From Bryobacteraceae bacterium (lineage in GTDB: Bacteria; Acidobacteriota; Terriglobia; Bryobacterales; Bryobacteraceae), in NCBI GenBank assembly GCA_025980435.1, contig JAICXK010000008.1, positions 1 to 46,288 of the forward strand: 46,288 bases of DNA, read 5' to 3'. Made by a program: the position numbers and the translations under genes. The notes under the pieces are model-generated. The model was given only the letters and a program-made list of their open reading frames with translations, was not told the origin of the DNA and did no database searches. Positions 4,538-40,902 of the stretch are shown one piece after another; position 1 is the first letter of the stretch, and each line of letters opens with the position of its first letter.

Positions 4538-5503
4538 TTAGGCAGTCTTCTCGATTATGGCGCTGCCGTAAACCGGCCATAGCCACTCTTTATATCCCGG
4601 CATCCGTCCGTGAGTCGCATCCGCATACAAGCGGTCAATCTTATCGGTAATGGGTCCGATCTCCCCTTTTCCGACGGGCCGATGATCGATCTCGACGATG
4701 GGAGCAACTTCGGCCGCCGTGCCGGTAAAGAAGACCTCATCGCAGCCGTAGAGTTCGCTCCGATCAATGGAACGCTCGACAACCTCCAGATGCAGTTCCT
4801 TGCCGGCAAGCTCCATCACGGTCGCGCGCGTGATGCCTTCGAGGATGTTGTCGGTAACCGGCGGGGTAATCAGCTTATGATTCCGAACCATAAAGAGGTT
4901 GCAGGTCGCGCCCTCGGCGACATGGCCGGATTCGGTGAGGAAGATAGCTTCGTCGTGGCCGTTCCGGTGTGCTTCGTCCGTGGCGAGAACGCTGTTGACG
5001 TAAGCGCCGCATATCTTCGCGCGGCCGGGAATGGCGTTATCCTCTACGCGACGCCAGGAAACGACGCCGGCCTTTAGTCCCCGCTTCTCGCTGAAGTAAT
5101 GCCCGAAGGGCAGCACGATGATGGCGTGGGCGTCGTTATCGTCCGCGTGAACGCCGATGCGCTCGGAGGATTTATACGCAATCGGCCGTGCGTACACATC
5201 CGAATGAAAACCGTTCTTGCGGCACAGGTCCGCCGTGATGTCGCACAGTTCGGACGGAGACGCCGGGACGTGAATGCGAAGAATGCCGCAGTTCTGCTTC
5301 CAGCGTTCGTAATGATCGAGAGCGCGGACCAGAAACAGTTCCCGCTGCTTGTCTTCGTAATAGCCGCGAATGCCCTCAAAAACGCCCGTGCCGTAGTGCA
5401 GAGCGTGGGTGAGGATGTTGACGTTCGCCTCCGCCAGGCGAACAAACCTGTTCTGGAACCAAACGATGATGTTTGGGTCAGGCATTGTTGAAGCTCGTGC
5501 CAT
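4538..5503 (-). CDS. ilvE: Branched-chain amino acid aminotransferase (IlvE-type, PLP fold class IV)
   Basis: A 321-residue class IV aminotransferase. The PLP lysine is Lys163 in PGRAKICGAYVNS, and the HALHYGTGVFEGIRGY block (about 33-48) and EGATCNLF block are typical of BCAT. It swaps amino groups between 2-oxoglutarate and Leu/Ile/Val, and many members also accept Phe. The start at 5503 is well supported by an AGGAGG site five bases upstream; an internal Met7 is possible but unneeded. It leads the probable operon ilvE, E1, paaABCD, with only 22 bp to the next gene, so a role in aromatic or branched-chain amino acid catabolism is as likely as biosynthesis. Confidence 0.93.
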   Translation of the reverse strand: MARASTMPDPNIIVWFQNRFVRLAEANVNILTHALHYGTGVFEGIRGYYEDKQRELFLVRALDHYERWKQNCGILRIHVPASPSELCDITADLCRKNGFHSDVYARPIAYKSSERIGVHADDNDAHAIIVLPFGHYFSEKRGLKAGVVSWRRVEDNAIPGRAKICGAYVNSVLATDEAHRNGHDEAIFLTESGHVAEGATCNLFMVRNHKLITPPVTDNILEGITRATVMELAGKELHLEVVERSIDRSELYGCDEVFFTGTAAEVAPIVEIDHRPVGKGEIGPITDKIDRLYADATHGRMPGYKEWLWPVYGSAIIEKTA

Positions 5504-29326: not shown

Positions 29327-29389
29327 TTCCGATACTGCCTGTAAATACCAGTATCCAACGACTACACCCGAGCATCCAATGATTTGGCG

Positions 29390-29812
29390 ATGCTTGTGAC
29401 CCGCAAGGCCGAATTCTCGGCATCTCACGTCTGCCGCCTGCCCTCATTGAGCGATGCAGAGAACCGGGAGATTTTTGGCGACGAGGCGAACCCCAACGGT
29501 CATGGGCACAATTACGTTCTGGAAGTGACGGTGGAGGGCGATCCAGACCCGGTGACCGGCATGGTCGTGGACCTGAAGCTTCTGAAGAAGATTCTCGAAC
29601 AGCATGTGATCGAGCCGATGGATCATCGTTTTTTGAACTACGAAGTTCCTCCGTTTGAGAAAGTGGTTCCGACCGCGGCCAATCTCGCCCACGAAATCTG
29701 GCGGCGTCTGGAACCGCAGGTGACCTCTTCCGCCACGCGTTTGGCGCGAGTGCGGCTTTTTGAAACGGAAGATCTTTACGTGGATGTCACGGCCGGGGAC
29801 CTGGCTGCATGA
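29390..29812 (+). CDS. 6-pyruvoyl-tetrahydropterin synthase/QueD family protein A (catalytic Cys replaced by Glu)
   Basis: 140 residues from the ATG at 29390. Zinc ligands are His13 (FSASH) and His38/His40 in G-H-G-H. At the site of the catalytic Cys stands Glu32 (GDEANPNGHGH). The catalytic Asp-His pair is present as Asp78-His79 (PMDHRFLN), and the pterin-anchor Glu125 (FETED) is present. The usual T-E-N of the conserved TTEN/TSEN segment is replaced by T-A-A-N at 95-98. Glu at this position is known in PTPS-III enzymes that replace FolB in folate synthesis. The ATG of paralogue B overlaps its stop. Divergent from the TlpA-like gene. Confidence 0.88.
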   Translation: MLVTRKAEFSASHVCRLPSLSDAENREIFGDEANPNGHGHNYVLEVTVEGDPDPVTGMVVDLKLLKKILEQHVIEPMDHRFLNYEVPPFEKVVPTAANLAHEIWRRLEPQVTSSATRLARVRLFETEDLYVDVTAGDLAA

Positions 29813-30291
29813 TCTCGCTTACGCGCCGATACCGGTTTTCTGCTTCGCACCGTTTGCACTCGCCTGCGCTGAGCGAAGCCGAGAACGCGCGCGTGTACGG
29901 GAAATGCAACAATCCGTTCGGCCATGGCCATGATTACGTGCTGGAAATCGCGGTTGCCGGTCCCGTGGATGCCCGGACGGGCCTGATTATTTCCGTTCCG
30001 GCGCTCGACCAATTCATTCATCGTCACGTTCTGCAGCTTTTCGCCAGCCGGAATATCAATGCCGACGTACCGCAGTTTGGGCAACTCGCCGCAACTACCG
30101 AGAATGTTGCGCTGGTAATAGCCGGGATTGTTCAGCAGAACTGGCATGATTCGTTCAGCGATCTTCCTGCGCGAGCGACAAGCATCCGGATTCAGGAGAC
30201 CGCCCGGAATGGATTTGAAGTTTTGTTGGGCGCGTCCACCAGTAGTATGCGGCCACGCACCGAGATGGAAAGGGTATTAGTCCATGGCTAA
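29809..30291 (+). CDS. 6-pyruvoyl-tetrahydropterin synthase/QueD family protein B (Asp-His pair lost)
   Basis: 160 residues. His14 (FSASH) and His39/His41 (GHGH) keep the zinc site, and the catalytic Cys33 is present in [12 protein letters not shown], as in PTPS of animals. At the place of the Asp-His pair it has Ala79-Ser80 (LFASRNIN), so two of three triad residues are missing; it does keep T-E-N (97-99) and the Glu of RIQETA. Its losses are the mirror image of paralogue A. It overlaps A by ATGA and overlaps folE by 8 bp, so the three are almost surely made together for a pterin pathway starting at GTP. Confidence 0.85.
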
Positions 30292-30910
30292 AGCTCCGTT
30301 TAAGAAGCAGGGCTCGCTTATTGAGCTCCAGCGCAAGGCCGGCGATCTCTCGATTGCCGCGCACATGAAGGAAGTAATCCGCGAGCTGGGGGAAGATCCC
30401 GGCCGCGATGGTTTGATCCGGACGCCGGAACGTGTGGAGAAAGCTCTGCGCTATTTGACCAGCGGCTATTCGGTCGATGTGAACCAGATTGTGAACGACG
30501 CGCTGTTCGATGTCGAGTACGACGAGATGGTTATCGTTCGCGACATTGAATTCTTCAGCATGTGCGAGCATCACATGCTGCCTTTCTTCGGAAAGATGCA
30601 CGTCGCCTATTTGCCCGACGCCAAGGTGATCGGGCTCAGCAAGATCCCGCGCATCGTAGATGCCTTTGCACGGCGGCTCCAGATCCAGGAACGGCTGACG
30701 CAGCAGGTGGCCGAAACCATTCAGAATCTGATTCATCCGCGAGGAGTCGCGGTGATCTGTGAAGCGCGGCATTTCTGCATGATGATGCGGGGCGTGGAGA
30801 AGCAGCACTCGGGCGCAATTACCAGCGCAATGCTGGGCGCTTTTCGCGACAACAAAGAAACCCGCAACGAGCTTCTATCGCTCATTGGCCAGCGCGCCAG
30901 AGCGATTTAG
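30284..30910 (+). CDS. folE: GTP cyclohydrolase I
   Basis: 208 residues, normal for the family. Zinc ligands Cys94 and His97 ([10 protein letters not shown]) and Cys165 ([12 protein letters not shown]) are present, with the [13 protein letters not shown] start block and the [20 protein letters not shown] block. It converts GTP to 7,8-dihydroneopterin triphosphate, which is the substrate of PTPS-family enzymes, so its overlap with the two PTPS-like genes makes biochemical sense. Products may feed folate, tetrahydrobiopterin-like or deazapurine pathways; the rest of queuosine synthesis is not in the window. Confidence 0.96.
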
Positions 30911-30986: not shown

Positions 30987-31364
30987 ATGAGTGACCAGAG
31001 CCGCTCTTTCCAGGCAGGCCCGGATCCGTTTGGACGCGTATGGAATGTGCAGTTCCGCTGGCTTCAGACGGGCATTTCCATCCGCCACGCAGATACGGTG
31101 GATGTGAAGTTTTTTGTTTCGCCCGAGGGCGGAGAGCCGGAAGAAAAGGTCATCGCGCTTCCGCATCCCGCTCTGCTCCAACTCACCGCAAGCCGGGGGC
31201 GCAAGCTCTCGGATTCTTACTGTTTACGCTTGGCCGCAGCCCATCTCCGTCGGATGATTGAGACTTCCGAGGATATGGAAAAGACCCTGGTAACTCTAAC
31301 ACCAGAGGAATTAGCAGCTTACGATGAGCAATCGGCAGGTGTAACAGTTCCGCAGCCCGCATAA
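30987..31364 (+). CDS. Unknown small cytosolic protein
   Basis: 125 residues, no signal peptide or membrane segment, no family I can name. It has a beta-rich first half (WNVQFRWLQTGISIRHADTVDVKFFV) and a helical second half (SYCLRLAAAHLRRMIETSEDMEK, then TLTPEELAAYDE). Coding look is supported by length, an ATG start and lack of a better frame. It sits 76 bp after folE and about 100 bp before the LysW-like gene, so operon membership is uncertain. Confidence 0.65.
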   Translation: MSDQSRSFQAGPDPFGRVWNVQFRWLQTGISIRHADTVDVKFFVSPEGGEPEEKVIALPHPALLQLTASRGRKLSDSYCLRLAAAHLRRMIETSEDMEKTLVTLTPEELAAYDEQSAGVTVPQPA

Positions 31365-31465: not shown

Positions 31466-31699
31466 ATGGTTAGTTGCCCAAAATGTGACGCTCCTATCGA
31501 CGTGGAAGAAGACGAACTCGATGAAGGCGACGTGCTCTCCTGCGACGAATGCGGAGCTTCCCTGACTGTCGCCAGCGTCAATCCCGTTGAACTCGAATCT
31601 GAGAGCGAGGATGACGACGAGGATGAAGATTTCGATTACGACGAGGATGAAGAGGACGAGGACGAAGACGAGGAAGAAGAGGAAGAAGACTGGCATTAG
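31466..31699 (+). CDS. LysW-like amino-group carrier protein with long acidic tail
   Basis: 77 residues from the ATG at 31466, with AAGGA seven bases upstream; a longer frame from 31376 is unlikely. The first 40 residues match LysW-type carriers: zinc ribbon Cys4/Cys7 and Cys26/Cys29, followed by ASLTVASVNPVELES, which parallels the LysW E-L-E-V-V-S-x-D-P segment. Residues about 44-74 are almost wholly Asp and Glu. It ends E-E-D-W-H, where LysW ends E-D-W-G-E and uses the last Glu to carry 2-aminoadipate or glutamate. The terminal Glu is missing, so carrier chemistry is doubtful. No lysX, lysY, lysZ, lysJ or lysK homologue is nearby. Confidence 0.72.
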   Translation: MVSCPKCDAPIDVEEDELDEGDVLSCDECGASLTVASVNPVELESESEDDDEDEDFDYDEDEEDEDEDEEEEEEDWH

Positions 31700-31709
31700 C
31701 GGGGCGCCT

Positions 31710-32096
31710 ATGCTGCTTCGCGTTGCCGCAATCCCGATTACGGCCGGGATACTTTTGTTTTGCGCTCCCCTTTGCTTCGCTCAGGTTCAGGCTCCGGTTG
31801 TCGGCCAGGGCGGAAACACGGCGCGATCCATTATCGGCACGGTCCTCAACGAATCGGGCGCTCCCATTCCGGGCGCGCACGTCCTTTTAAAAAACGGGAA
31901 ATCCCTGCAGGTTCGTTCATTTATCGCTCAGCAGGATGGAAAATATCATTTCTATGGCCTGAGTTCCGACGTGAACTATGAGGTCCGGGCCCAGGCGAAT
32001 GGGAAGACCAGCAAGACCAAGAACATCAGTGTGTTCGATAGCCACAAAGTGATTCAAGTCGATCTCACCGTCAACAAGAAGAAAGCCGAAAGCTGA
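31710..32096 (+). CDS. Secreted carboxypeptidase-regulatory-like (Ig-fold) protein
   Basis: 128 residues from the ATG at 31710, giving a clean signal peptide (LLRVAAIPITAGILLFCAPLCFAQ). The mature part is one CarboxypepD_reg-like beta-sandwich: IIGTVLNESGAPIPGAHVLLKNG, then DGKYHFYGLSSDVNYEVRAQANG. Such domains occur alone or at the N-terminus of TonB-dependent receptors in Acidobacteriota; here it stands alone. It starts 10 bp after the LysW-like gene and ends two bases before the eda GTG, so the three may share a transcript. Role unknown. Confidence 0.78.
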   Translation: MLLRVAAIPITAGILLFCAPLCFAQVQAPVVGQGGNTARSIIGTVLNESGAPIPGAHVLLKNGKSLQVRSFIAQQDGKYHFYGLSSDVNYEVRAQANGKTSKTKNISVFDSHKVIQVDLTVNKKKAES

Positions 32097-35895: not shown

Positions 35896-36546
35896 ATGCC
35901 TCAATACTTTTCGCGCAGCGCGAACACATTTTCGAGGATGACCATTCTCGCACTTGTCTTAGCGCTCTGCGGAGTTTGCTGGTACGGCTACCTGATCGTG
36001 CGGTCGCCGTACGAAATGATGCAGAATGTTCCGCGGGAACAGCCTGTGCCTTTCAGCCACGAGCACCATGTTGGCGGCCTGGGCATCGATTGTCGCTACT
36101 GCCACACCACAGTCGAAGATTCCTCTTTCGCCAACATTCCGGCAACCAAGATCTGCATGAACTGCCACTCGCAGATGTGGGCCACCAGTCCGATGCTGGA
36201 ACCGGTGCGTGAGAGTTACCGCACCGGCAAGTCGATCGAGTGGACGCGCGTAAACGACCTGCCGGAGTTCGTTTACTTCGACCACAGCATTCATGTACAC
36301 CACGGAATCGGCTGCTCAACATGCCATGGGCGCGTGGACCAGATGCCGCTAACGTGGCAAGCGGCGCCACTCACGATGGAGTGGTGCCTAAACTGCCATC
36401 GCCATCCCGAGCGGTACGTACGGCCGGAGAGTCAGGTGTTTTCAATGGCGTACACGCCGCCCGCGAATCAAACCGCGCTCGGGAATCGCCTGGTTCGCGA
36501 ATATCACATCCAGAGCCTCACAAGCTGCTCAACCTGCCATCGATGA
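35896..36546 (+). CDS. actA: ActA, pentaheme cytochrome c of alternative complex III
   Basis: 216 residues: an N-terminal membrane helix (MTILALVLALCGVCWYGYLIV) and five CxxCH heme sites at Cys66, 87, 140, 164 and 211. This heme count and order match ActA. It takes electrons from the iron-sulfur and quinol part of the complex and passes them towards ActE and the oxidase on the periplasmic side. GGGAG lies ten bases before the ATG. The first gene of the operon; its stop overlaps the actB start as ATGA. Confidence 0.93.
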   Translation: MPQYFSRSANTFSRMTILALVLALCGVCWYGYLIVRSPYEMMQNVPREQPVPFSHEHHVGGLGIDCRYCHTTVEDSSFANIPATKICMNCHSQMWATSPMLEPVRESYRTGKSIEWTRVNDLPEFVYFDHSIHVHHGIGCSTCHGRVDQMPLTWQAAPLTMEWCLNCHRHPERYVRPESQVFSMAYTPPANQTALGNRLVREYHIQSLTSCSTCHR

Positions 36547-39494
36547 AAAATATGCCCAATCACGATCTCGTTCCGCTAGAAGCCCTCACGCAAAACCGGA
36601 AGCCGAGATTGTGGCGGACACCGGAGGAGTTCGCGGGGCATGCTGAAGAAATCGAGCAGGAAGAGATTGGCGAAGAAGGCATCGAGTTTTCGGGAGCCAG
36701 CAGGCGGCGTTTCCTTTCGCTGATGGCGGGTTCGATGGCTCTGGCCGGACTCACCGGATGCACACGGCAGCCGGAAGAGACCATCATGCCTTATGTCGAT
36801 CCGCCGGAGAACGTGATCCCAGGCAGGCCGAAATATTACGCAACCGCGGCGCCGGTAAACGGGATTGCCGAAGGGGTGATTGTCGAGAGCAACACCGGAC
36901 GCCCGACCAAAGTGGAGGGCAACCCGGACCATCCTGCCAACCTGGGGGCGACCAGCGTTCACTCGCAGGCCTGCCTGATGGATCTGTACGATCCTGACCG
37001 AGCCAGGGAGATTATTCATCTCGGGCTGCCGCGGGATTGGGATTCGTTTCAGCTCGCCTGGCAGGGAGCCATCGGGCCGGTTCAGGAGCGGCATGGCGCG
37101 GGATTCCGCATTCTGACCGAGACGATTGTATCGCCAACTCTGGGTGCGCAACTTCAGGCGGTGCTCAAAAAGTTTCCCGCCGCAAAATGGCACCAGTTCG
37201 ATCCGGCTGGGCCCCATTCGGCGCGTGCAGCGGCGCAGATGGTCTTCGGCAAGCCGGTGAATACCTACTTCAAGCTGGATACCGCCGATATCGTGGTCTC
37301 GCTGGATGCGGATTTTCTGGCGTGCGGCCGGGGATCCACCCGATGCGCGCACGATTTTGCAATCCGGCGGCGGCAAGGCGACCGGCTGGACATGAACCGG
37401 CTGTACGTAATCGAGAGCAGCATGACAGCTACGGGCGGTAAAGCCGATCACAGGCTGGCCTTGCCCTATGCCGAAATAGAAGAGTTTGCGCGCGAACTGG
37501 CAGCCGCGCTCGGCGCGGGCGGGACAGCCTCCGGCGCCGGCGCGTACCAATCCTGGGTGACGCACATGGCGCGCGATCTCCAGGCCCACAAAGGCGCTTG
37601 CGCGATCATCCCGGGCGAACATCAATCGCCGGCCGTGCATGCCCTGGCGCATGCGATGAATGCAGCGCTTGGCAATGCCGGGAAGACCGTAATCCATACG
37701 GACTCGCTGGAAGTGCAGCCGGTTGACCAGATCGAATCATTGCGCGAACTGTCGCGCGATATGAACGATGGAAAGGTCGATCTGCTGCTGATCATGGGAG
37801 GCAACCCGGTCTACAACGCTCCGGCGGATTTCAACTTCGCGGACGGGTTCGACAAAGTCAAGACATCGATTCACGCCGCCACTCAGTTCAATGAAACGTC
37901 ATTGAAGACAACCTGGCACATTCCGGAGCCGCATTTTCTGGAGGACTGGGGAGACGCGCGATCGCTCGACGGCACCGTCAGCATCATTCAGCCTCTGATT
38001 GCGCCGCTATATCCAGGTTCGCGTTCGCAGCTTCAAATTCTGGATGCCATGCTGCAGTTTCCGGGGCGTTCTTCTTATGAAATCGTGCGCGCTTACTGGT
38101 CCCGGCAGAGCGGAGCAAAAGATTTCGAAGCATGGTGGCGCAAATCCGTACACGACGGGCTGATTGCCGGGTCGGCGCTGCCCGCGATTACGGTAACGCC
38201 GAACCATAACTTCGGCACTCCGCGATCCGCGCCCTCCGGCGGCATGGAGATTGTGATGCGGCCGGATGTGTATATGTACGACGGCCGTTATGCGAACAAC
38301 CTGTGGCTGCAGGAACTGCCGCATCCCATGACCAAGCTGACGTGGGACAACGCCATCTTTCTAAGCCCCAAGACAGCCAGGCGGCTGCAGTTCGACAATC
38401 AACAGCACGTCGAGCTGAAGTATCGCGGCCGCAGCGTGTGGGGTTCGGTGTGGATTTTACCCGGTCAACCCGATGAATCCATCACCGTGGACCTCGGCTG
38501 GGGGCGCTGGCATTCCGGGCGGGCCGGGAACGGCGCCGGTTTTAACGTCTACGCGATACGCACTTCCGACGCGCTATGGACCGGAACCGGCGTGGAGCTT
38601 CGGAAGCTGGATGCACCGTATCCGCTGGCTACGACGCAGATGAATCAGTCCATGGAGCACCGCGACGTGGTGATTCGAAACACCGTGGAAGGATACAAGC
38701 AGAACCCGGATTTCGCCAAGCAGACCGAGCACGAGCCGCCCACGAATCTTACCCTCTATCCGCAATGGAATTACACCGGCTACGCATGGTCCATGTCCAT
38801 CGACCTGACGGCCTGCGTCAATTGCCAGGCCTGCGTGATCGCGTGCCAGGCGGAGAACAATATCGCGGTAGTCGGCAAAGAACAAGTATTGGCGCGCCGC
38901 GCCATGCACTGGCTCAGGATCGACGTCTACTATGAAGGCGATCTCAGTTATCCGACCGCCTATTACTGCCCGGTACCGTGCATGCAATGCGAAAACGCGC
39001 CTTGCGAGCTGGTCTGTCCGGTGCAGGCCACCAATCACAGCAGGGATGGTTTGAACGACATGGTTTACAACCGCTGCATCGGAACACGCTACTGCTCGAA
39101 TAACTGCCCGTGGAAAGTGCGCCGCTTCAATTTCATGCTGTTTCAGGACTGGAAAACGGAAACCTGGAAGATGCAGCGCAATCCGGACGTTAGCGTGCGC
39201 AGCCGCGGAGTGATGGAAAAATGTACGTATTGCGTGCAGCGCATCCGGGAAGCGGAAATCAAATCGGCCAACGAGAACCGTTTCATTCGCGATGGCGAGA
39301 TCCAAACGGCTTGTATGCAGGCTTGTCCGACGCAAGCTATCGTTTTTGGCGACAAGAACAACAAGGGCAACCGCGTAGCCAAGCTGAAGGCCGAAAAACT
39401 AGACTATGCCATGTATGCGGAGCTGAACACCCGTCCGCGAACTACGTATTTGGCCGAGCTTCGCAATCAGAATCCGGAGTTTCAAGGTGCCTGA
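36543..39494 (+). CDS. actB: ActB, iron-sulfur subunit of alternative complex III (fused MopB-like and ferredoxin domains)
   Basis: 983 residues from the ATG overlapping the actA stop. A twin-arginine motif S-R-R-R-F-L-S near residue 54-60 precedes a hydrophobic stretch and a lipobox-like L-T-G-C. Residues about 70-720 resemble a molybdopterin oxidoreductase fold thought not to bind Mo in this family. The C-terminal part has cysteine clusters CVNCQACVIAC, CMQCENAPCELVCP, CIGTRYCSNNCPW and CTYC with CMQACPTQA, i.e. 4Fe-4S and 3Fe-4S ferredoxin-type sites. It carries electrons from menaquinol oxidation to ActA. The 8-bp overlap with actC suggests coupled translation. Confidence 0.94.
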   Translation: MKNMPNHDLVPLEALTQNRKPRLWRTPEEFAGHAEEIEQEEIGEEGIEFSGASRRRFLSLMAGSMALAGLTGCTRQPEETIMPYVDPPENVIPGRPKYYATAAPVNGIAEGVIVESNTGRPTKVEGNPDHPANLGATSVHSQACLMDLYDPDRAREIIHLGLPRDWDSFQLAWQGAIGPVQERHGAGFRILTETIVSPTLGAQLQAVLKKFPAAKWHQFDPAGPHSARAAAQMVFGKPVNTYFKLDTADIVVSLDADFLACGRGSTRCAHDFAIRRRQGDRLDMNRLYVIESSMTATGGKADHRLALPYAEIEEFARELAAALGAGGTASGAGAYQSWVTHMARDLQAHKGACAIIPGEHQSPAVHALAHAMNAALGNAGKTVIHTDSLEVQPVDQIESLRELSRDMNDGKVDLLLIMGGNPVYNAPADFNFADGFDKVKTSIHAATQFNETSLKTTWHIPEPHFLEDWGDARSLDGTVSIIQPLIAPLYPGSRSQLQILDAMLQFPGRSSYEIVRAYWSRQSGAKDFEAWWRKSVHDGLIAGSALPAITVTPNHNFGTPRSAPSGGMEIVMRPDVYMYDGRYANNLWLQELPHPMTKLTWDNAIFLSPKTARRLQFDNQQHVELKYRGRSVWGSVWILPGQPDESITVDLGWGRWHSGRAGNGAGFNVYAIRTSDALWTGTGVELRKLDAPYPLATTQMNQSMEHRDVVIRNTVEGYKQNPDFAKQTEHEPPTNLTLYPQWNYTGYAWSMSIDLTACVNCQACVIACQAENNIAVVGKEQVLARRAMHWLRIDVYYEGDLSYPTAYYCPVPCMQCENAPCELVCPVQATNHSRDGLNDMVYNRCIGTRYCSNNCPWKVRRFNFMLFQDWKTETWKMQRNPDVSVRSRGVMEKCTYCVQRIREAEIKSANENRFIRDGEIQTACMQACPTQAIVFGDKNNKGNRVAKLKAEKLDYAMYAELNTRPRTTYLAELRNQNPEFQGA

Positions 39495-40902
39495 GCTAGT
39501 CGCGCTGGAGGAACGGCAACGTCAAACAGCAAGGCCGCTGGATCCCAATAATCCGCTGGCCGTCGTGGCGCCGGGAACGACTTTCGAGACCGTCAGCGAG
39601 CAGATCAGTTCGATTGTGCTCACCCGGAAAATCCCGCTGTTCTGGTGGTGCACCTTCGGATTCGGCGTTTTCCTGTTTGTCGTCTTCGGAGTCGCAATCA
39701 CATATCTGCTCGCCAAGGGGATCGGGATTTGGGGCGTCCAAATTCCCGTTGCATGGGCCTTTGCTATTACGAATTTCGTCTGGTGGATCGGAATCGGCCA
39801 TGCAGGCACGTTGATATCGGCGTTTTTGCTGCTGATGAATCAGAGCTGGCGCAGTTCCATCAACCGGTTCGCCGAAGCAATGACCATCTTCGCCGTGATG
39901 TGCGCGGGGATGTTCCCCTTGTTCCATCTGGGCCGGGCTTGGATCTTCTACTGGATTCTGCCCTACCCGAATACGATGACTGCGCAGCCGAATTTCCGCA
40001 GCCCCCTGGTTTGGGACGTATTCGCGGTCTCGACGTATTTTACGATCTCGGTCCTGTTTTGGTACATCGGGATGATTCCCGATCTCGGGACGCTGCGGGA
40101 TCGCGCAACGGGCGGATTCAAGAAGGGTTTCTATGGCGTGCTCTCTTTTGGCTGGCGGGGATCTTCTCATCATTGGAAGCTGCACAAAACGGCATGCCTG
40201 CTGCTTGCCGGTATCGCCACACCGCTGGTGCTGTCGGTACATACGGTAGTCAGTTTCGATTTCACAATCGCCATTCTGCCCGGCTGGCACTCGACGATTT
40301 TTCCGCCTTACTTCGTTGCCGGCGCGATCTATTCCGGGTTCGCGATGGTGCTGGTGCTGGGTATTCCGCTTCGCGCGGTCTACGGGCTGCATAACCTGAT
40401 CACGGTGCGGCATTTGAATAACTGCGGAAAGCTCATGCTGGTGACCGGCCTTTTTCTGGCTTACACCTACCTGATTGAACCGTTCACGGCATGGTACAGC
40501 GGCAACGATTTCGAAATGTACACGGTTCACAATCGCGCCGTGGGACCTCATTCGTGGAGCTATTGGCTTGTGATTCTGCTGAACGTGGTGATTCCGCAGG
40601 CCTTGTGGTTTTACAAGGTCCGCACCAGGGTGATCCCGCTGTTTACCGTGTCGATGGTGGTGCTGGTTGGGATGTGGGTGGAGCGTTTCATGATCATCGT
40701 CACCGCGCTCGACCGTGATTTTCTGCCTTCGTCCTGGTCGAATTTTATTGCGACCTTCTGGGATAACGCAATGTTCTGGGGCTCAATCGGCATGTTCATC
40801 GTCTTGTTCATGCTCTTCGTGCGCTTCCTTCCGATGATTCCGATGTCCGAGGTGCGCGAACTGCTGCCGTTCTCGCGTCCTGGCGGAGGGACCGAGAAAT
40901 GA
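39487..40902 (+). CDS. actC: ActC, NrfD-like quinol-interacting membrane subunit of alternative complex III
   Basis: 471 residues from GTG at 39487, preceded by GGAG. About ten hydrophobic segments are visible, with the first at residue 46-80, and NrfD-type phrases such as VWWIGIGHAGTLISAFLLL, WRSSINRFAEAMTIFAVMCAG, HLGRAWIFYWILPYPN and HTVVSFDFTIAILPGWHSTI. ActC and ActF are homologous membrane subunits; ActC is thought to form a quinol site near the iron-sulfur subunit. It overlaps actD as ATGA. Confidence 0.95.
   Translation: MPELVALEERQRQTARPLDPNNPLAVVAPGTTFETVSEQISSIVLTRKIPLFWWCTFGFGVFLFVVFGVAITYLLAKGIGIWGVQIPVAWAFAITNFVWWIGIGHAGTLISAFLLLMNQSWRSSINRFAEAMTIFAVMCAGMFPLFHLGRAWIFYWILPYPNTMTAQPNFRSPLVWDVFAVSTYFTISVLFWYIGMIPDLGTLRDRATGGFKKGFYGVLSFGWRGSSHHWKLHKTACLLLAGIATPLVLSVHTVVSFDFTIAILPGWHSTIFPPYFVAGAIYSGFAMVLVLGIPLRAVYGLHNLITVRHLNNCGKLMLVTGLFLAYTYLIEPFTAWYSGNDFEMYTVHNRAVGPHSWSYWLVILLNVVIPQALWFYKVRTRVIPLFTVSMVVLVGMWVERFMIIVTALDRDFLPSSWSNFIATFWDNAMFWGSIGMFIVLFMLFVRFLPMIPMSEVRELLPFSRPGGGTEK

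Follow-up and report, generated by a model that had tools for sequence, protein, structure and literature searches.

An orphan LysW-like zinc-ribbon protein of Acidobacteriota with a long acidic tail, probably put to a different job from amino-group carriage

The 46,288-nucleotide window, by which we mean the whole stretch of DNA analyzed here, encodes a small protein to which sequence and model comparisons assign the zinc-ribbon fold of the amino-group carrier protein LysW. This protein belongs to an orphan lineage that is Acidobacteriota-wide and in which an extended acidic tail, predicted to be disordered, stands in place of the carrier terminus, EDWGE. Given that the end residue and the partner enzymes have been lost, that an acidic tail has been gained, and that strong selection is seen across Acidobacteriota, it is probably a LysW-descended protein that has been put to a different job. 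The LysW fold and family are already known. We found no description of an orphan lineage with these features in the open-access papers searched, and the lysW of PMC5584792 is an unrelated Na+/H+ antiporter.

Results

The lysW-like gene and its product

The positions of the gene, its parts, and its immediate neighbors are given in Table 1. Its translation reads MVSCPKCDAPIDVEEDELDEGDVLSCDECGASLTVASVNPVELE followed by SESEDDDEDEDFDYDEDEEDEDEDEEEEEEDWH up to the stop codon. The Pfam family Zn_ribbon_LysW (PF21344) matches residues 2-45 (40.9 bits; cut-off, 27), and the four cysteines, which form the CxxC pairs C4/C7 and C26/C29, are invariant in a 49-member alignment. The NCBIfam LysW equivalog model TIGR01206 gives the protein 33.7 bits, which is under the cut-off of 53.2 bits, while true acidobacterial LysW proteins score 74 and 76.7 bits. 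The only significant matches in a sequence comparison with the PDB are LysW entries (3wwl and 5k2m). An AlphaFold model built with 49 relatives was compared with known structures, and the top five matches were all LysW structures, with Z scores of 5.5-6.6, followed by a next match at 3.2. The pLDDT of this model is approximately 87-90 over ribbon residues 1-40 and approximately 54-58 over the last three blocks of the tail.

Table 1. Features at and beside the lysW-like gene of the window
Feature	Position	Strand	Basis
Conserved 125-aa protein, family unassigned	30987-31364	+	Upstream; cluster 3, 19 loci
Orphan LysW-like protein (77 aa with the acidic tail; stop codon TAG)	31466-31699	+	Translation; PF21344; PDB matches; AlphaFold comparison
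Zinc ribbon of the LysW type, with two CxxC motifs, plus NPVEL segment	31466-31600	+	Pfam match; pLDDT; dN/dS
Acidic tail, predicted to be disordered, end E-E-D-W-H	31601-31696	+	pLDDT; tail pattern in 55 family members
cpdB, secreted-type CarboxypepD_reg-domain protein	31710-32096	+	PF13620, 51.6 bits; 10 nt downstream of lysW-like gene

The tail is 33 residues long, 27 of which are Asp or Glu, and it ends in EEDWH, with neither EDWGE nor the terminal Glu acceptor. An initial annotation of this DNA had described a LysW-type ribbon with two CxxC motifs, a chain ending in E-E-D-W-H, and a run of about 30 acidic residues; the first two descriptions hold, and the third is right to within a few residues. 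It had also raised the possibility that a sequencing error conceals a normal EDWGE end. This we exclude, since independent assemblies of species of the same genus yield tails that end in EEEWH, EEDWR, and EEDWQ, also without EDWGE.

Homologs of the protein are present in 71 of 100 relatives examined, and 54 of the 60 family genomes sampled have the gene. The ribbon is under strong purifying selection: within the genus, dN/dS is approximately 0.04 (median dN 0.06, dS approximately 1.75), a ratio from which the roughly half of genus pairs with saturated dS are excluded. Together, these two results put the gene far from a chance open frame. The tails of 55 family members are variable in sequence, range from 19 to 44 residues (median 34), and are approximately 77% acidic, and the median net charge of the family's LysW-like proteins is approximately -38. 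Trp lies within the final three residues in 53 of these 55 proteins, and the final residue is Lys, Arg, or His in 43 and Glu in one, [DE]W[K/R/H] being the tail end in most relatives. Orphan tails that end in KDWK (L217, G159) and GAWHR (L160, G349) occur outside the window's family, and the Trp-plus-basic ending may therefore have more than one origin.

Carrier enzymes in the genome and across the phylum

LysW of T. thermophilus bears its amino acid on the last residue, Glu54, through the gamma-carboxyl group; the LysW ligase recognizes EDWGE; and an archaeal ArgW needs its Glu54, since an E54A substitution causes arginine auxotrophy (PMC10433800). The genome that contains the window is a 5.1 Mb draft of 416 contigs that is 93.5% complete. 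A search of this whole draft for LysX gave no match at E 1e-5, and its best TIGR02144 match, with E 1e-6, is far below the cut-off. The search for LysZ gave a single kinase, distant and ArgB-like, with 33% identity and 60.7 bits, compared with 375-523 bits for the kinases in true LysZ genomes. DapA (327.9 bits), LysA (482.6 bits), and ArgJ (391.6 bits) are all over cut-off, a gene content which suggests that lysine and arginine are made by non-carrier routes. There are no lysine or arginine carrier-pathway genes near the gene within the window, and no LysX-type ligase in a biosynthetic cluster is among the neighbors seen at the locus. High-scoring LysX is likewise absent from all 59 sampled family relatives; among the 100 relatives, it is found only in three class-level relatives (G085, G086, and G093), as is a second, LysZ-grade kinase, and the tails of these three end in EEEEDWGE.

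Across the phylum, the division is sharp. LysX scores over cut-off in 34 of 297 Acidobacteriota genomes, and all 34 hold a LysW ending in EDWGE or EDWGQ, which nearly always adjoins lysX. None of the acidic-tailed copies examined lies beside lysX, and no orphan locus without EDWG[E/Q] shows a link to LysX, LysY, or LysZ. Cultured bacteria with an orphan include Acidobacteriaceae bacterium KBS 96 and Bryobacterales bacterium F-183. In eight genomes (G138, G349, G228, G159, G160, G204, G264, and G309), an orphan coexists with a carrier LysW and LysX, indicating that the orphan is not merely a remnant of pathway loss. On whether the orphans have a single origin, a tree of the ribbon (152 sequences, 44 columns) requires four changes of tail state and is too poorly resolved to settle their order or to choose between one loss and several. 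Domain fusions were considered as functional clues, and the long open frames at L209 and L210 yielded nothing usable; the simplest reading of L210 is an acidic-tailed protein whose frame remains open far upstream.

Since both the terminal Glu acceptor and the loading and processing enzymes are absent, it is very likely that the window protein is not an amino-group carrier. The initial annotation had noted that no lysine or arginine carrier genes are nearby, which is true of the window, and had proposed looking elsewhere in the genome for LysX and LysZ homologs, neither of which was found in the 5.1 Mb draft. The comparison of last five residues and gene neighbors that it had also proposed gave varied non-Glu ends and no link to ATP-grasp ligases, the outcome that it had named as refuting its reading; this removes the carrier chemistry. 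Its suggestion of a repurposed carrier is well supported by the LysW fold, the failure to find LysX or LysZ, the presence of the DAP and ArgJ pathways, and the strict phylum-wide separation by tail end. Its suggestion of a carrier for another amine linked through an internal Glu finds no support, none of the more than 100 acidic-tailed members being linked to a LysX-type ATP-grasp ligase. Loss of carrier chemistry does not remove the interest of the protein, given that its repurposed lineage is found widely and is maintained by selection.

Genes linked to the orphans

Downstream of the orphan, loci of the window's class encode one or two CarboxypepD_reg proteins of the secreted type, cpdA and cpdB, whose median pI values are 10.4 and 9.7, respectively. 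A cpdB homolog lies downstream of the orphan at 54 loci of the family and class, while orphans outside the class mostly lack a directly adjacent cpd gene. Two of the class-level relatives that retain LysX, G085 and G086 (loci L071 and L069), have the order lysW-lysX-lysY-cpdA-cpdB-(other sequence)-lysZ, in which the LysX and LysZ families were confirmed and LysY is an ArgC-type reductase. G094, a genome of the family that includes G086, has neither lysX nor lysY in the interval that separates lysW from cpdA, and its tail reads EEEWEG. Since cpd genes sit inside these lysine carrier clusters, their linkage to the orphan may have come down from a carrier operon. The 125-residue protein encoded upstream of the window's lysW-like gene is common to the genus and a few other genera and has no Pfam or PHROG match.

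Also upstream, two 6-pyruvoyl-tetrahydropterin synthase/QueD-family genes and folE stand in tandem at 29384-30910 of the window, and in most of the genus folE and the second PTPS gene are again neighbors of the orphan. The region at 35896-40902 resembles, by eye only, an alternative complex III cluster, with what look like a multiheme cytochrome, an Fe-S/molybdopterin-like subunit, and an NrfD-like membrane subunit. Elsewhere in the family, one or two secreted thioredoxin-like proteins often come after cpdB (clusters 7 and 13; family assigned by eye); their genes lie approximately 0.7-2 kb downstream of the lysW-like gene at L018, L034, L047, L050, and other loci. The cpdB homolog in the lysine carrier operon of G085 (L071, 7176-8729) is one long frame that runs into a region that by eye is alpha/beta-hydrolase-like. 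In families f31, f70, and f80 (L137, L147, L156, L162, and L180), a gene that by eye is of the VWFA type adjoins the orphan on the opposite strand, and a cpdA homolog lies beyond it.

Outside the window's class, the gene for the nickel-pincer sulfur transferase LarE (TIGR00268) lies directly downstream of the orphan on the same strand at 19 loci in at least seven families (L157, L165, L168, L172, L176, L178, L194-L205, and L224), with a spacing of -19 to +62 nt. At L165, larE comes just after lysW (5015-5179), and the stop and start codons overlap through ATGA. Seventeen of the 19 tails end in Glu (DWEE, DWDE, or DEDE), and where the two genes overlap, the shared start codon could account for part of this. 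Of the 297 genomes, 97 have an orphan, and 90 of these encode LarE; of the 200 that have none, 121 encode it (Fisher p = 9e-10, ignoring phylogeny). The genome of the window encodes LarE (300.9 bits, on contig C18, the window being on C6) and LarC (213.6 bits); its larE is not adjacent to the orphan, nor is larE found beside the orphan elsewhere in the class. LarE as an obligatory partner was rejected, because six near-complete genomes (G170, G218, G238, G285, G323, and G379) hold an orphan and have no LarE over cut-off; none of the six is among the LarC matches listed. The operons nevertheless suggest a possible sulfur-transfer role for the orphan.

Discussion

In this phylum-wide lineage, the ribbon has been kept, the acceptor Glu and all carrier enzymes have been dropped, and the gene is linked to larE or to secreted CarboxypepD_reg genes, which suggests that the scaffold has been recruited for something else. 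Our best guess is a charged scaffold, one of the options in the initial annotation, and we consider it reasonably likely that the repurposed LysW serves as an adaptor or scaffold, made up of the zinc ribbon and an acidic tail that is disordered. As a small cytosolic protein, it would dock onto one partner through the ribbon, and the acidic tail, the near-terminal Trp, and, in the window's family, the usual basic last residue would make a second contact, both electrostatic and aromatic. Candidate clients are the products of the linked genes, namely the basic CarboxypepD_reg proteins in the window's class and LarE elsewhere. Because the adjoining genes vary by clade (a CarboxypepD_reg pair, LarE, a VWFA gene, or none), they do not point to one partner; nor would the two-point contact be universal, since tails in family f11 mostly lack the terminal aromatic residue.

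Continued amine carriage, with loading at an internal Glu or at the terminal carboxylate by a ligase other than LysX, would fit the intact ribbon fold and the DW of EDWGE that the window's family retains. It is nonetheless highly improbable given the separation of LysX, LysY, and LysZ from orphan loci without EDWG[E/Q], the other routes to lysine and arginine, and the fact that the end is here His, Lys, Arg, or Trp where ArgW cannot dispense with its Glu. That the gene is a functionless, decaying remnant of a lost lysine operon might be read from the contrast between L069 and L071, which retain lysW-lysX-lysY-cpdA-cpdB-lysZ, and L068, which lacks lysX and lysY between lysW and cpdA. We find this scarcely credible: a dN/dS of approximately 0.04 contradicts it, as do the retention of the gene in nearly all genomes of the family and the eight genomes in which a true carrier LysW stands alongside the orphan.

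Two further explanations take the linked genes as their starting point. The orphan might be a cytosolic acidic chaperone or regulator of the co-encoded basic CarboxypepD_reg proteins before their export, a reading favored by the tight linkage throughout the class, the 10 nt gap in the window, and the opposite charges of the two products. We think this unlikely, however, since the cpd genes also occur within intact carrier clusters, from which the linkage could have been inherited, since beyond the class most orphans have no directly adjacent cpd gene, and since a high pI is common in small secreted proteins. Equally unlikely, in our estimate, is that the orphan product serves LarE as a scaffold or as the carrier of its sulfur, as TtuB serves the PP-loop enzyme TtuA, the genes having become unlinked in the window's class. 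The 19 operons with their mostly Glu-ended tails, the co-occurrence across genomes, the LarE and LarC of the window's own genome, and the published comparison of LarE with TtuA/TtuB (PMC9283937) argue for it; the six genomes with an orphan and no LarE, the class without larE beside the orphan, the lack in the window protein of the terminal Glu of LarE-linked tails, and the lack of a GG-type sulfur-carrier end argue against it. The fuller version, in which the acidobacterial LysW is a LarE partner whose Glu-ended tail scaffolds LarE or carries activated sulfur and the window protein is a later, unlinked derivative, is slightly more doubtful still; if true, it would give the LysW scaffold a second chemistry, in nickel-pincer cofactor synthesis.

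Naming such genes "lysine biosynthesis protein LysW" from the Pfam match alone would be wrong, and the lysW-larE operons offer a direct way to ask if LarE has a dedicated protein partner in Acidobacteriota.

Comparison with known systems

SSB-type tails are acidic and end in an aromatic residue. By analogy only, the orphan shares with them a disordered acidic tail and a near-terminal aromatic residue as a possible docking element, although it lacks a DNA-binding domain. TtuB differs from LysW in fold. In the TtuA/TtuB sulfur relay, which has been compared with LarE (PMC9283937), a small partner works with a PP-loop sulfur transferase, and the lysW-larE operons of other Acidobacteriota might encode a similar pair. 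TtuB, the sulfur carrier of that relay, bears a thiocarboxylate at its C terminus; thiolation of the orphan would be hypothetical. The amino-group carrier proteins of secondary metabolism (the Vzb22 type and those of Family 3 encapsulin clusters, PMC8346489) are likewise LysW homologs outside lysine synthesis; their genes belong to biosynthetic clusters, and tethered intermediates are their presumed cargo, whereas the orphans have no adjacent ligase or biosynthetic cluster. Compared with the LysW and ArgW carriers themselves (T. thermophilus 3wwl and 3wwn; T. kodakarensis 5k2m), the window protein has a tail of approximately 33 residues rather than approximately 12, a longer ribbon loop, no EDWGE or terminal Glu, and no LysX or LysZ found in its genome, yet it shares with these carriers the zinc-ribbon fold with two CxxC motifs, the P-x-EL-type segment after the ribbon, an acidic C-terminal extension, and a near-terminal Trp.
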